In this document: in pieces, positions 38,179 through 43,860 of the stretch
Numbering within the stretch: the stretch's first letter is position 1
How the letters are laid out: each line of letters begins with the position of its first letter
Assembly (NCBI GenBank): GCA_027307335.1
Contig: DAHUXD010000014.1
Location: 62,001 to 126,000, forward strand
DNA length: 64,000 nucleotides
Reading direction: 5' to 3'
Source: Acidobacteriota bacterium
GTDB taxonomy: Bacteria; Acidobacteriota; Thermoanaerobaculia; UBA5066; Gp7-AA6
Made by a program: the position numbers and the translations under genes
The notes under the pieces: generated by a model
What the model was told of the DNA's origin: nothing
Database searches by the model: none
The model's input: the letters and a program-made list of their open reading frames with translations, nothing else

Positions 38179-39470
38179 GCGTTCCTCCGCTCCACGTGCA
38201 GCGTGCGGCCGGTCACGCTCGCGATGCGCACGGTCTCGCCCGGCGCGAGACCCTCCGGACCCGCCGCGTCCCAGTACTCGCCGAAGACCTGGACCTTCCC
38301 TTCCCCCGCCGGCCCGAAGCCCTCGACCACGCGCGCGGGCTCGCCGACCATCGCCGCCAGCCCCGTCCGCGCGGGCTCGCGCCGCAGCCGCGCCGTCTTC
38401 CACGCGAGCAGGCCCACGATCCCGAGCGTCGCGGCGAGCGCGGGAAGGACGACGGAGAGATCGACGCGGTACCCCTCCCCCGCGCTGCCGCCCGAGAACA
38501 GCAGCAGCGAGCCGGCGACGAGCGCGATGGCGCCGCCCACGGCGAGCACGCCGTGGCTCGCCGCCTTCACCTCGGCGACGAACAGGGCGATGCCGAGGAG
38601 GATCAGGGCGAGGCCCGCGAGGTTCACGGGCAGCACGGAGAAGGCGTAGAGGGCGAGCAGCAGCGCGATCGCTCCCGCGACGCCCGGCAGGATGGCCCCG
38701 GGCGTCGACAGCTCGAAGTAGAGGCCCACGAGACCGACGAGGAAGAGGACATACGCCACGTTGGGGTCGGAGACGACCCCGAGCGCCCGCTCGACGCCTC
38801 CCATCGGCCGATCCTCGATGCGCGCGCCCTTCAGCGCGAGGGTCGTCTCGGCGCCGCCGACGCGGAGGATTCGGCGTCCGTCGAGCTGCGCGACGAGGTC
38901 GGGCACGTCGCGAGCGATGACCTCGATGAGGCCGGCGGCCTTCGCCTCGGTCTCCGTGTAGGAGACGCTCTGGAGCACCGCGGCCTCCGCCTTTTCGACA
39001 TTCCGACCCCGCTGGCGGGCGAGCGTCCGGATGAACGCGCGGGCGTCCTGCTCGGCCTTCTCGTTCAGCTTCTTCGGAAGGTCCTGCCCCTCCCCGCCCA
39101 CCGGATGCGCGGCGCCCGTGTTCGTGCCCGGCGCCATCGCCGCCACGTCGCCCGAGAGCAGCAGGAAGAACCCGGCCGACGCCGCCTGCGCGCCGGAGGG
39201 CGCCACGAACGTGGCGACCGGGACCTTCGACTGCAGGATCGTCGAGCTCATCGCGCGGGTCGAGGACAGCAGCCCGCCCGGCGTCGACAGCGTCACGACG
39301 ACGAGCGCGGCGCCGTCGCGCTCCGCCTCGCCGATCGTCTTCTTCAGATAGTTCGCCGACGCGGGATGGATCGCGGTGTCGATGCGCGCTTCGACCACGA
39401 AAGGCGCGCGCTCGGCCGCGGCCACCGGCAGCGCGAGTGTCGCGAAAACGAGCAACACCCGCCGTTTCAT
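38175..39470 (-). CDS. NfeD-type membrane serine protease (ClpP-class)
   Basis: 431 residues: signal peptide (cut near VAAAE), an N-terminal ClpP-like protease domain with nucleophile Ser in [10 protein letters not shown] and likely base Lys in the [11 protein letters not shown] region, four or so membrane helices (about 225-350) and a C-terminal OB-fold NfeD domain ([17 protein letters not shown]). This is the long NfeD1b form with the protease. Paired with the slipin gene by ATGA. TAGACT lies ten bases before ATG 39470. Confidence 0.92.
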
Positions 39471-39510: not shown

Positions 39511-40428
39511 GTGCGTCTCCGCCCCACCGAAGCCATCCACTGCGCCGCCCTGGCGGTGCTGACGAGCCTCGGGATCCTCCTCTGGCCGCGGCTGGCCGAG
39601 CCCGTCGCCATGCTGGCGGGCTACGCCGGGCTCGCCCTCCTCGTCGGGGTGATGGTCCTGATCGCCCCCCGGGAGGACCGCCTGCCGCCCCTGGCGACGT
39701 TCGTGGTCGACTTCTACCCGGCGGCATTCCTGCCCCTCCTCTTCAACACCCTCGAGCCACTGATCCAGGCCCTGCGCGGCGGACCGCGGGACGCCTGGCT
39801 GATCGCGGCGGACCGGTTCCTGTTCGGCGTCGACGTCACCGTCTGGGCGCAGCGCCTCGTGCGCCCCTGGTTGAGCGACCTCTTGTACGGCTTCTACTCG
39901 ACCTACTACTTCATCTCGCTGACGCTCTGCCTCGTGTTGTGGCTCCGGAACCGCGCCACCGCGCGCCGCTTCGTCTTCACGCTGATGGTCGTCTATTACG
40001 TCTCGTGGACCGGCTACTTCATCATTCCGGCGCTCGGGCCGCGGTTCGCCCAGGCGGCCGAGTACACGGTGTCCCTCACGACCACCCCGATCGCCCGCAC
40101 GATCAACGACACCATCAACAACATGGAGAAGACCAAGTTCGACGTCTTCCCGTCCGGCCACACGATGATCTCGGTCGCGGTCCTGATCGTGGCCTGGCGT
40201 CGCGCCCGCGACGTCTTCTGGGTCCTGCTCCCGATCGCGACCGGCCTCGTGATCTCGACGGTCTACTGCCGCTACCACTACGTCATCGACGTGATCGCCG
40301 GGATGACGCTGGCGTTCGTGACGGTCCCGATCGGCGACGGCATCTACGACCGGCTCATGAGCCGGACCGCCGCCGCGCCGGCGGCCGCGCGGCGCGAGCC
40401 GCGCCGCGCCTACAACGCCTTCTCGTAG
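39511..40428 (+). CDS. Aur1-like PAP2 membrane phosphatase/phosphotransferase
   Basis: 305 residues with about six membrane helices. PAP2 motifs are DVFPSGHTM and CRYHYVIDVIAG; the RYHYVIDV form is typical of the Aur1/inositol-phosphorylceramide synthase-like subgroup rather than of undecaprenyl phosphatases. It converges on, and overlaps by 19 bases, a gene set that looks like ceramide synthesis, so transfer of a phospho-headgroup to ceramide is a reasonable inference. GTG 39511 lies at a CATAAT promoter. Confidence 0.8.
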   Translation: MRLRPTEAIHCAALAVLTSLGILLWPRLAEPVAMLAGYAGLALLVGVMVLIAPREDRLPPLATFVVDFYPAAFLPLLFNTLEPLIQALRGGPRDAWLIAADRFLFGVDVTVWAQRLVRPWLSDLLYGFYSTYYFISLTLCLVLWLRNRATARRFVFTLMVVYYVSWTGYFIIPALGPRFAQAAEYTVSLTTTPIARTINDTINNMEKTKFDVFPSGHTMISVAVLIVAWRRARDVFWVLLPIATGLVISTVYCRYHYVIDVIAGMTLAFVTVPIGDGIYDRLMSRTAAAPAAARREPRRAYNAFS

Positions 40429-41549
40429 ATCCGGTAGGTCTTGTAGAGCCGGCCGCCCCAGAGACGGACGGCGCCGATGACGAGCTCGTTGTCCTCGAGC
40501 AGCCAGGACACCTCGGAGCCGGTGTAGCCCTTCGACAGCAGAAAGCGGAGGGAGTCGGCCATCATGATCGACTGGATCCCGCTCTGCCGGTACGGACGCT
40601 TGATGCCGAGCGTGAGGACTCGGACGGTCTTGATCTTCTTGACGCCGAAGAGGAACTTCAGCCAACCGAAGGGAAGGAGACGCCCCCGCAGCGGCTTCAT
40701 CGCGACGTTGTAGTCCGGCAGCATCAGCATGAACGCGATCGGTTCGAGGGTCCCGTCCGGACGGGGCGCCTCCGCGAGCCAGAGCAGCTCCGGGACGAGG
40801 AGAGGCTTCATCCGGGCAGCCATGAAGTCCATCTCCTCGGGCGTCATCGGAACGAAGCCCCAGTTCTTCTCCCAGGCCTCGTTGTAGACCTCGCGAATCT
40901 TCATCAGGTCCTTCGCGAGAGTCTTCTTCGTCACGTTGCGGACGAGGATGTCCTTCGACCGCTTCCGGAAGCGCTCGGCGACGCGCGACAGGCGCTCGAG
41001 CGGCTTCTCCTCGAGCGGGAACCAGTACGCGAGGAGGTCCTTCGCCTTCCGGAAGCCCTGTCCCTCGATGAGCCCGATGTACGACCTCGGGTTGTACGTC
41101 ATCATCAGGACGGGCGACGAGTCGAATCCGTCCACGAGGAGACCGGCCTCGTCGTTGAGCGTCGGGTTCGTGGGCCCGCGGAGCACGGTCATCTTGCGCT
41201 CGCGGCCCCAGACCGCCGCGGCGTCGAGGAGGGCGGCCGCCACGCGGGGGTCGTCCTCGCTCTCGAAGTAGCCGAAGAAGGAGGCCCGCTCGCCGTGGAA
41301 CTCGTTGTGGTTGCGGTCGAGGATCGCGGCGATGCGGCCGACGTCGGCGCCGCCGCGGCGCGCGACGAAGAGCTGCATCTCGCCGTGGCGGAAGAACGGG
41401 TTCTCGTTCTTGAAGACCTTGGCGAGGTCGTCGCGCAGCGGCGCCACCCAGTGCGGGTCCCTGGCGTAGAGGCGGTCCGCGACGTCGAAGAAGCGGGAGA
41501 GATCGGCCTTCTCGCGGCCGATCCGCTCGATGGCGATCGGATCGCTCAA
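40410..41549 (-). CDS. GNAT-fold acyltransferase, candidate bacterial ceramide synthase
   Basis: 379 residues. Repeated GNAT-like modules: FVARRGGADVGRIAAILDRNHNEFH and SFFGYFES near the N-terminus, and a C-terminal acyl-CoA site TLGIKRPYRQSGIQSIMM. Relatives are often annotated as GNAT or dATP pyrophosphohydrolase. In Caulobacter a GNAT-type protein encoded near serine palmitoyltransferase is the ceramide synthase (bCerS), adding the second acyl chain. Here it lies 22 bp after the serine palmitoyltransferase-like gene, which suggests the same job. The fold is clear; the substrate is inferred. Confidence 0.7.
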   Translation of the reverse strand: MSDPIAIERIGREKADLSRFFDVADRLYARDPHWVAPLRDDLAKVFKNENPFFRHGEMQLFVARRGGADVGRIAAILDRNHNEFHGERASFFGYFESEDDPRVAAALLDAAAVWGRERKMTVLRGPTNPTLNDEAGLLVDGFDSSPVLMMTYNPRSYIGLIEGQGFRKAKDLLAYWFPLEEKPLERLSRVAERFRKRSKDILVRNVTKKTLAKDLMKIREVYNEAWEKNWGFVPMTPEEMDFMAARMKPLLVPELLWLAEAPRPDGTLEPIAFMLMLPDYNVAMKPLRGRLLPFGWLKFLFGVKKIKTVRVLTLGIKRPYRQSGIQSIMMADSLRFLLSKGYTGSEVSWLLEDNELVIGAVRLWGGRLYKTYRIYEKAL

Positions 41550-41571
41550 GACCGCCGCGTCTCCCGCAGGA

Positions 41572-42816
41572 TCAGACCTCGACCGCGCGGAGGAGGCCCA
41601 CCTCGCGGCCGACCTTCTCGAAGCCCTCGAGCGCCCGGTCGAGATGCGCGCGCGCGTGCGTCGCCATCAGCGAGGTCCGGATCAGCGCGCGGCCCGGGGG
41701 CGTCGCCGGAGAAAGCACGCAGTTGACGAAGACCCCCTCCTCCTCGAGGCGCTTGACCATGCGGAGGGCGGTCAGGTCCTCGCCGACCACGATGGGAACG
41801 ACCGGGGATCGCGTCTCCCCGGTGTCGAAGCCGAGCTCCCGCAGGCCGGCGAGGAAGTACCGCGTGTTGTCCCAGAGCCGCTGCCGGCGCTCCGGTTCGC
41901 GCTCCATGATGTCGACCGTCGCGAGGGCCGCGGCCGCCGACGCGGGAGGCGGCGCGGCGGAGAAGATCAGCGTGCGAGCGCGGTGCTTGATGTACTCGAT
42001 GACGCGCGCGTTGCCGGCGATGAAACCGCCGACCGAGGCCATCGACTTCGAGAACGTGCCCATGATCAGGTCGACGTCCCGCTCGAGCCCGAAGTGCTCC
42101 GCGGTGCCGCGGCCCGTGGGTCCCATGACGCCGATGCCGTGCGCGTCGTCCACCATCACGCCGGCGGCGAACTCCCGCGCGACGGCGACGATCTCGGGCA
42201 GCGGCGCGACGTCGCCCTCCATCGAGAAGACGCCGTCCACGACGACCAGGCGTCCCCGCGACTCGTGGTCGTTGCGCAGCTGGCGCCGCAGGTCGGCGGC
42301 GTCGTTGTGCTTGAACTTCCGGACGTCGCCGAAGGAGAGGCGTGCGCCGTCGATGATGCACGCGTGGTCCTGCTTGTCGAGATAGACCGTGTCGCCCTTG
42401 CCGACGAGGCAGGAGATCGCGCCGAGGTTGACCTGGAAACCCGTCGAGAACGTGACGGCGGCTTCCTGGCGCATGAACTCGGCCAGCCGGTTCTCGAGAC
42501 GGACGTGGAGGTCGAGCGTGCCATTCAGAAACCGGCTGCCCGCGCATCCGGATCCATATTTCCGGATGGCGTCGATCGCCGCCTCCTTCACGCGCGGATC
42601 GTTCGTCAGCCCGAGGTAATTGTTCGACCCGAGCATGACCAACCGGCGGCCGTGGAGCGTGACCTCTGGATCCTGGGCGGACTCGATCACCCGGAAAAAC
42701 GAGTAGAAGCCGGTCGCGCGGACGCGCGCGGGATCTTCGTATCGATAGCATTTTTCGAAGAACGGAACGGCCTCTGCCGTCTCCGCCCTCGCGGCCCGGG
42801 CGAGCTTGCTCATCAT
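41572..42816 (-). CDS. spt: Serine palmitoyltransferase-like alpha-oxoamine synthase
   Basis: 414-residue PLP enzyme condensing an acyl-CoA/ACP with an amino acid. NNYLGL, KQDHACIIDGARLS, VDDAHGIGVMG and GTFSKSMASVGGFIAG (Schiff-base Lys) are family marks. KBL and BioF share them, but the N-terminal FFEKCYRYEDPARVRATGFYSFFR extension and the flanking CerR-like and GNAT genes favour serine palmitoyltransferase over glycine or alanine acyltransferases. The start is ATG 42816 (or 42813), preceded by AGGTGGGGG. Confidence 0.82.
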   Translation of the reverse strand: MMSKLARAARAETAEAVPFFEKCYRYEDPARVRATGFYSFFRVIESAQDPEVTLHGRRLVMLGSNNYLGLTNDPRVKEAAIDAIRKYGSGCAGSRFLNGTLDLHVRLENRLAEFMRQEAAVTFSTGFQVNLGAISCLVGKGDTVYLDKQDHACIIDGARLSFGDVRKFKHNDAADLRRQLRNDHESRGRLVVVDGVFSMEGDVAPLPEIVAVAREFAAGVMVDDAHGIGVMGPTGRGTAEHFGLERDVDLIMGTFSKSMASVGGFIAGNARVIEYIKHRARTLIFSAAPPPASAAAALATVDIMEREPERRQRLWDNTRYFLAGLRELGFDTGETRSPVVPIVVGEDLTALRMVKRLEEEGVFVNCVLSPATPPGRALIRTSLMATHARAHLDRALEGFEKVGREVGLLRAVEV

Positions 42817-42851
42817 CACCCCCACCTGTGCGTGCCGACTCGGCGGGCCGG

Positions 42852-42857
42852 ATCTTA
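42852..42857 (-). promoter_or_regulatory. Possible -10 TAAGAT ahead of the spt gene
   Basis: An AT-rich patch just after the cerR stop contains minus-strand TAAGAT about 35 bases from the start, leaving a leader with a good ribosome-binding site (AGGTGGGGG). Part of the AT content is the TAA stop of the preceding gene. Confidence 0.35.
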
Positions 42858-42864
42858 GCAAATT

Positions 42865-43860
42865 TTACAAACCCTTGCCCGCAAGCCATCCGGCGGCGCG
42901 GTACCAGTCCCAGGCCACCCGAAGGCCCTCCGTCAGTGGCGCCGGCGGCGGGAGGTCGAGCGCGCGGGAGAGCGGCGCCCCGTCGCACAGCCAGTCCCCC
43001 GCGAGAAGCTCGCGCGCCTTGTCGGCGTTGAACGGCCGGGAGCGCCGCGTGACGAGCTCGAGCCCCGTCTCGAGGGCGCCCAGCGCCCGGACGCCGAGGT
43101 CCGGCACGGTCACGAAACGAGGGCGCCGCGACGGGAGGGCGCCGATCATCCGTGCGAGCTCCCCCAGCGCGACCGGCGCGGGGTCGCACAGAAACGACGT
43201 GCGGCCGCCGAGGTCCGGGCGCGAGGCCGCGCGGGCGAGCGCGATGGCGGCGCGCTCCACCGCGATGACCTGGACGCGAGATCGCGGCGCGGGAATCGGG
43301 ACGATGCCCCGCGCGGCCATCTGGAAGTACTGGAGCAGGCCGCGGTCCCCCGGCCCGTACACCACGCCCGGCCGGATCACGTGCCACGGCCCGCGCCAGA
43401 GGCGCTCGACCGCCTCCTCGCCTTCCCGCTTCGAGATTCCGTACCAGGAAACGGGCCGCGGCGGATCCCGCTCGGTGACGGGAACGCCGTCGCGCGAGGG
43501 CCCGGCGGCCGCCTGGCTCGACACCAGGACGAAGACGGCGTCGGGAGAGGCGCGCGCCGCCTCTTCGAGAAGCCGCTCGGTGCCGCGCGCATTGACGTCC
43601 CGATAGTCCTCGAGCGAGCGCGCCTTGACGAGCCCCGCAACATGGACGATCGCGTCGACGCCCGAAAGCGCCGCGGCCGGCAACCCGCCCGGGGAAAGAT
43701 CGCCCGCGACCGCCTCGGCCGCGACCCCTTCGAGGAGACCCGCTCGCGCCGCCTCGGGCCGCCGCGCGAGGAGCCGCACCGTCCACCCCCCGCCGGCGAG
43801 CGCCCGCGCCACGTGGCCGCCCACGAACCCGGTCCCGCCCGTGACGAAGGCCGTCGGCAT
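42865..43860 (-). CDS. cerR: NAD-dependent epimerase/dehydratase-family reductase, CerR-like
   Basis: 331-residue extended SDR: GGTGFVGGHVARAL at the N-terminus, SSQAAAG with the catalytic Ser, and YGISKREGE (Tyr-x-x-x-Lys). In Caulobacter an SDR of this type (CerR), encoded beside serine palmitoyltransferase, reduces the 3-keto group of the sphingoid or ceramide intermediate. Here it is the first gene of an operon with spt and the GNAT protein. The general fold is sure; the ceramide role is inferred. TAGAAT lies nine bases before ATG 43860. Confidence 0.72.
   Translation of the reverse strand: MPTAFVTGGTGFVGGHVARALAGGGWTVRLLARRPEAARAGLLEGVAAEAVAGDLSPGGLPAAALSGVDAIVHVAGLVKARSLEDYRDVNARGTERLLEEAARASPDAVFVLVSSQAAAGPSRDGVPVTERDPPRPVSWYGISKREGEEAVERLWRGPWHVIRPGVVYGPGDRGLLQYFQMAARGIVPIPAPRSRVQVIAVERAAIALARAASRPDLGGRTSFLCDPAPVALGELARMIGALPSRRPRFVTVPDLGVRALGALETGLELVTRRSRPFNADKARELLAGDWLCDGAPLSRALDLPPPAPLTEGLRVAWDWYRAAGWLAGKGL

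Follow-up and report, generated by a model that had tools for sequence, protein, structure and literature searches.

The window analyzed here is a 64,000-nucleotide stretch of an Acidobacteriota genome (assembly GCA_027307335.1, 4.37 Mb and 96.5% complete; contig DAHUXD010000014.1, positions 62,001 to 126,000, or G000:C31:62001-126000 in our numbering). It contains a four-gene locus for proposed sphingolipid synthesis. Three genes run on the minus strand, with intergenic gaps of 3 and 22 bases: an extended short-chain dehydrogenase/reductase (SDR) of 331 amino acids (42865..43860), CerR-like by position and proposed to reduce keto-ceramide or ketosphinganine; a serine palmitoyltransferase (SPT) of the oxoamine synthase family (41572..42861, for which an ATG near 42816 is the better placed and likely start); and a tandem-GNAT N-acyltransferase of the YghO/bCerS family with 379 amino acids (40410..41549), the proposed ceramide synthase. 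Converging on them from the plus strand is the gene for a PAP2_3-family membrane protein of 305–319 amino acids (39511..40428), a candidate phosphoceramide (headgroup) synthase. Its first ATG lies at 39469, and the GTG at 39511 was the start chosen in an earlier, sequence-only reading of this DNA. The stop codons, read directly, lie at 40412-40410 (GNAT) and 40426-40428 (PAP2), so that the two reading frames overlap tail to tail by 19 bases (40410..40428). The open reading frames and stops confirm that reading on all four genes, on the order SDR-SPT-GNAT and on the overlap, and its placement of the host in Acidobacteriota was borne out.

The oxoamine synthase was identified as an SPT by phylogeny. 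In a maximum-likelihood tree, it fell on the side of the SPTs of Sphingobacterium multivorum, Escherichia coli and Sphingomonas with a split support of 96/93, while KBL from E. coli and a KBL-like paralogue encoded in the window's genome fell on the opposite side and BioF formed a long branch outside. Grouping with KBL or BioF, the outcome that the sequence-only reading had named as fatal to its proposal, did not appear, and a KBL or BioF identity was ruled out by this split. Members of the SPT group in the order and class are 62–80% identical, with paralogues set apart at 35–45%. The best solved structure in a PDB search was S. multivorum SPT (458 bits). None of the NCBIfam oxoamine synthase models reached its own cut-off; the best, SerpalmtaseCFB (558 bits, below the curated cut-off of 640), is a Bacteroidota-specific model whose cut-off does not define SPT as such. 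Aligned to 8guh, the protein carries the pyridoxal phosphate lysine motif (GTFSKS type) as GTFSKSMASVGG and the DHxxIIDG histidine motif as DHACIIDG.

The GNAT protein is 33.5% identical to E. coli YghO over 99% of its length and 35% identical to a Sphingomonas protein from the spt neighborhood. Coverage of 97–99% at 33–36% identity to these two proteins indicates homology with the spt-linked YghO family along the entire protein. Beside yghO in E. coli lie an oxoamine synthase gene and genes for an acyl carrier protein, an SDR and an acyl-AMP ligase. A published listing (PMC9386255, Fig. 9) pairs yghO (ECD_02850) as counterpart with Caulobacter CC_1154, the bCerS gene. The equivalence of the window protein to CC_1154 is taken through this listing, the sequence comparison here being with YghO and the Sphingomonas protein. 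A predicted model with a pLDDT of 91.4 matched tandem-GNAT structures in Foldseek; by sequence, no Pfam family was assigned and no PDB entry was matched. The gene is single copy in the genome, and its family is widespread, with at least 581 confirmed places in named genomes, frequently adjoining SPT and SDR genes. We propose from this homology that the protein is an N-acyltransferase of the YghO/bCerS family acting as ceramide synthase; the mismatch to bCerS foreseen as a possible refutation did not occur. In three Myxococcales loci (L209, L212 and L216), the SDR has a bCerS-like GNAT gene on either side (SPT-GNAT-SDR-GNAT), which suggests two N-acyltransferases of different specificity.

The SDR carries the TGxxGxxG and YxxxK motifs, as read in the sequence, and matches the Pfam family Epimerase (90.6 bits). 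It adjoins SPT and GNAT genes across many phyla and is 30% identical to the protein in the CerR position of E. coli. That E. coli protein matches another SDR of the same genome slightly better (79 versus 73 bits), and the SDR tree was poorly resolved. The competing SDR (G000:C31:7561-8382), on the same contig, is taken to be NDUFA9-like and constitutes a second candidate ceramide reductase; CerR itself has been described as NDUFA9-like. The window SDR is CerR-like mainly by position, its place in the operon being as the sequence-only reading had it, and is a candidate CerR.

Ceramide synthesis at the locus is well supported because of the SPT grouping, the YghO-family GNAT and the SDR in the CerR position, and the sequence-only view of the host as a probable ceramide maker held up well on these predictions. 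In the proposed pathway, SPT would condense serine with an acyl thioester to 3-ketosphinganine, the tandem GNAT would N-acylate this intermediate and the CerR-like SDR would reduce the ketone to give dihydroceramide. The PAP2 protein would then move a phospho-headgroup from a glycerophospholipid to ceramide by the PAP2 His/Asp mechanism, as in Aur1. In this scheme we infer the substrates, the headgroup and transferase rather than hydrolase activity; the SPT and GNAT identities, operon, linkage, fold and motifs are computed. The spt, bcerS and cerR genes are often clustered in other bacteria (PMC11334938). The ceramide operon itself is ordinary and not new, and the interest of the locus lies in its fourth gene.

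The association of the PAP2 gene with ceramide genes was assessed across relatives and distant genomes. The SDR-SPT-GNAT operon is kept across the class and is present in other phyla, and three of the order's families retain the tail-to-tail GNAT/PAP2 pair: 9 loci overlap by 19–49 bases, 1 is spaced by 31 bases and 2 are spaced by 0.8–1.5 kb. Because both the operon and the convergent pair are conserved in this way, the arrangement is not attributable to chance. In two order members (L040 and L117), SPT lies apart from GNAT because of inserts (2.5 and 3.7 kb), with GNAT and PAP2 still neighbors. In other Acidobacteriota (L054 and L066), PAP2 comes after the SDR and is read in the same direction. 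When named genomes were scanned independently, a PAP2 member was located in 17 of 80 GNAT loci, the 80 totaling 0.85 Mb. Bryobacteraceae and Solibacter carry SDR-PAP2-GNAT-SPT on a single strand; Limisphaerales and a Thermodesulfobacteriota metagenome-assembled genome carry SPT-SDR-PAP2 running into GNAT; in Verrucomicrobiota and Methylomirabilota, PAP2 and GNAT converge tail to tail; in Cloacimonadota PAP2 adjoins GNAT; and in four Myxococcaceae it lies ~0.5–3 kb upstream of SPT. PAP2 also co-occurred with GNAT among 149 Acidobacteriota genomes (23/43 versus 17/106; p = 9e-6, without correction for shared ancestry).

These data bear on the alternative that PAP2 is a neighbor by chance, or a housekeeping gene, and lies outside sphingolipid metabolism. 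In favor of this explanation, PAP2 proteins are common, and some carriers of the operon in the class have no PAP2 gene nearby. Against it stand the tail-to-tail overlap kept in the order, the independent in-operon placements in several phyla and the 17 members in 0.85 Mb of loci, compared with roughly one strong member per 4 Mb genome-wide (a rough figure, from a profile built on the linked members). We consider a coincidental neighbor very improbable. At the spt genes of E. coli (L173) and Sphingomonas (L174), copies of lptF/lptG were observed, hinting at dedicated sphingolipid export there; such copies were not seen at the window's locus.

The fold and motifs of the PAP2 protein were examined next to those of lipid phosphatases and of Aur1, the fungal inositol phosphorylceramide (IPC) synthase. 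The protein belongs to Pfam family PAP2_3 (82 bits) and displays the catalytic motifs FPSGH...RYHYVID, with the His/His/Asp residues conserved in 18/18 ceramide-locus relatives. With an AlphaFold2 model (pLDDT 89.6) as the Foldseek query, no PDB entry other than two Aur1 structures matched at E <= 0.001; PgpB and LpxE followed. In a search with the family profile, the best match was AUR1 (1.8e-6), covering most of its length, and PgpB matched in the C-terminal part only (1.2e-3). The single-sequence PDB search returned a chance receptor match alone; by sequence, the alignment profile was required to reach Aur1. The lipid-phosphatase signatures C1 (Kx6RP) and C3 (SRx5Hx3D) were absent from all 18 members. 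A phospho-headgroup transferase is a plausible general class for the predicted protein because Aur1 ranks best in fold and profile and neither C1 nor C3 is present. One alternative is a lipid phosphate phosphatase whose substrate would be ceramide-1-phosphate, sphinganine-1-phosphate or phosphatidate, with free ceramide as the product. It would be compatible with the catalytic residues common to phosphatases, with the rank of PgpB and LpxE directly after Aur1 and with the ceramides reported for the acidobacterium Solibacter usitatus (Halamka 2024, as cited in PMC12619533). Given the missing signatures and the preference of both profile and fold for Aur1 over nearly the full length, we regard such a phosphatase as unlikely.

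The resemblance to Aur1 does not extend to membership of its clade. The RYHYVIDVIAG motif had been taken in the sequence-only reading as Aur1-type; it is present in the protein, and on inspection Aur1 itself carries LTHHYFVDLMAG, so that an Aur1-specific meaning was rejected in favor of a general PAP2_3 motif. Ceramide-locus PAP2s carry either PSGH or PSSH; with one exception, they also have an arginine two positions ahead of the histidine in HYxxD. The signature PSLH...THHYxxD is common to Aur1 and the PAP2s linked to myo-inositol-phosphate synthase (MIPS) in three myxobacteria. These proteins group in a single clade (100/99), in which the Aur1 branch is long, and the ceramide-locus PAP2s fall outside it. 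At those MIPS loci of Myxococcus and Corallococcus (L270, L272 and L277), a second PAP2 gene adjoins MIPS; its product scores 136–143 bits on the NCBIfam model of phosphatidylinositol (PI)-dihydroceramide synthase (NF052609) and is the likely myxobacterial IPC synthase. On the same model, ceramide-locus PAP2s, those of the same myxobacteria included, score at most ~30 bits; for the window protein it is the best NCBIfam match, a weak one at 29.6 bits against a cut-off of 480. A search for the BT_1522 family across the relatives gave only weak, scattered matches. By motif and phylogeny, the window protein is not an Aur1/BT_1522 member and belongs to a separate PAP2_3 clade, which in several phyla is associated with ceramide genes. 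The earlier description of an Aur1-like headgroup enzyme therefore survives for fold and profile, in which Aur1 is nearest, and fails for motif and clade.

Inositol supply was compared with the distribution of the PAP2 gene. Among 19 genomes of the order, 18 have a PAP2 match (one of these weak and unlinked) and 3 have MIPS; of the 17 genomes with a linked PAP2 to which the scan of named genomes led, 7 have no MIPS. Because MIPS is so sparse in the order and absent from these linked genomes, the clade, taken together, cannot rely on inositol made de novo. MIPS is present in the window's genome and in 12/22 genomes reached through other loci. In the former, it forms part of an inositol cluster on another contig (G000:C20 ~61800-69300; L168:3821-11291) with genes for an LPG_synthase_TM protein, an NTP transferase, a class III aminotransferase, a Gfo/Idh oxidoreductase and a DIPPS-like CDP-alcohol transferase; either an inositol-lipid pathway or one for a di-inositol-phosphate solute may be encoded there. 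MIPS beside CDP-alcohol and NTP transferases resembles the proposed alternative inositol-lipid cluster of Bacteroides vulgatus, and because the genome has this combination, inositol phosphoceramide is possible in the window's organism.

A true IPC synthase, functionally equal to BT_1522 or Aur1 and fed by PI, would agree with this gene set, with Aur1 as the nearest solved fold and profile and with the weak NF052609 match. It is difficult to reconcile with PAP2 matches in nearly all order genomes and MIPS in few, with linked genomes devoid of MIPS, with the two clades kept apart by tree and motif and with myxobacteria, in which the MIPS-side PAP2 matches the IPC model and the ceramide-locus PAP2 does not. 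We judge it improbable. The specific claim that the PAP2 enzyme acts as the fungal IPC synthase does was accordingly not upheld: the protein lacks PSLH...THHY and most carriers in the order lack MIPS.

We favor, with somewhat better than even confidence, the reading of the whole as a ceramide locus joined by a phosphoceramide synthase from a separate PAP2 clade, whose donor is probably not only PI. Several points weigh against it. The TM-score between the PAP2 model and Aur1 is only ~0.55, class-mates in two families (f6 and f68) retain the operon and have the PAP2 homologue elsewhere or not at all, and the SDR assignment rests on position. PAP2 enzymes, moreover, switch easily between phosphatase and transferase activity. 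Recurrent linkage together with a distinct clade points to a second type of bacterial phosphoceramide synthase. A more specific proposal, held tentatively and at somewhat less than even confidence, is that the clade is a bacterial phosphoceramide synthase family (Acidobacteriota, Verrucomicrobiota, Myxococcota, Methylomirabilota and others) whose donor is a glycerophospholipid other than PI. If true, the clade would supply a synthase for ethanolamine- or glycerol-phosphoceramides. An ethanolamine-phosphoceramide synthase of Bacteroides has been sought by homology and not found (PMC8791184). Bacterial ceramide synthesis is widespread, and a PAP2 family tied to it in many phyla and distinct from the inositol-type synthase is a concrete headgroup candidate that can be tested in culturable carriers such as a myxobacterium or Solibacter.

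The sequence-only reading knew of no described bacterial set with this fourth gene in this arrangement, a statement that holds only narrowly. In the open-access literature searched, the PAP2 linkage was not found described; a bacterial IPC synthase, BT_1522 (PMC9246714, PMC8791184), and clustered spt, bcerS and cerR were already known. For phospho-headgroup addition to ceramide outside Bacteroides, only CpgA/B/C of Caulobacter, which make ceramide phosphoglycerate (PMC11324152), were found there. Caulobacter crescentus (spt CC_1162, cerR/epi CC_1164 and bcerS/aca CC_1154) shares with the window an SPT, an SDR and a GNAT-type N-acyltransferase. In contrast to Caulobacter, the window's operon has neither AcpR nor AasR, its SPT is nearer the Sphingobacterium type and the candidate headgroup enzyme is a PAP2 protein instead of CpgA/B/C. 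The BT_1522-1526 cluster of Bacteroides thetaiotaomicron likewise provides a phospho-headgroup enzyme for dihydroceramide, described as Aur1-like, although that cluster is tied to MIPS and PI synthesis rather than to SPT, and the window PAP2 falls far below the cut-off of its model. Fungal Aur1 is the best fold and profile match and has the same catalytic His/His/Asp arrangement, but it is only 14% identical to the window PAP2 over the fold alignment, has PSLH...LTHHY where the window protein has PSGH...CRYHY and belongs to a separate clade. Also among the nearest known systems are the SDR-PAP2-GNAT-SPT operons of Solibacter and Bryobacteraceae (L249 and L220), which comprise the same four gene families in the same phylum as the window; they differ in lying entirely on one strand with PAP2 internal, and their PAP2 proteins are ~24% identical to that of the window.

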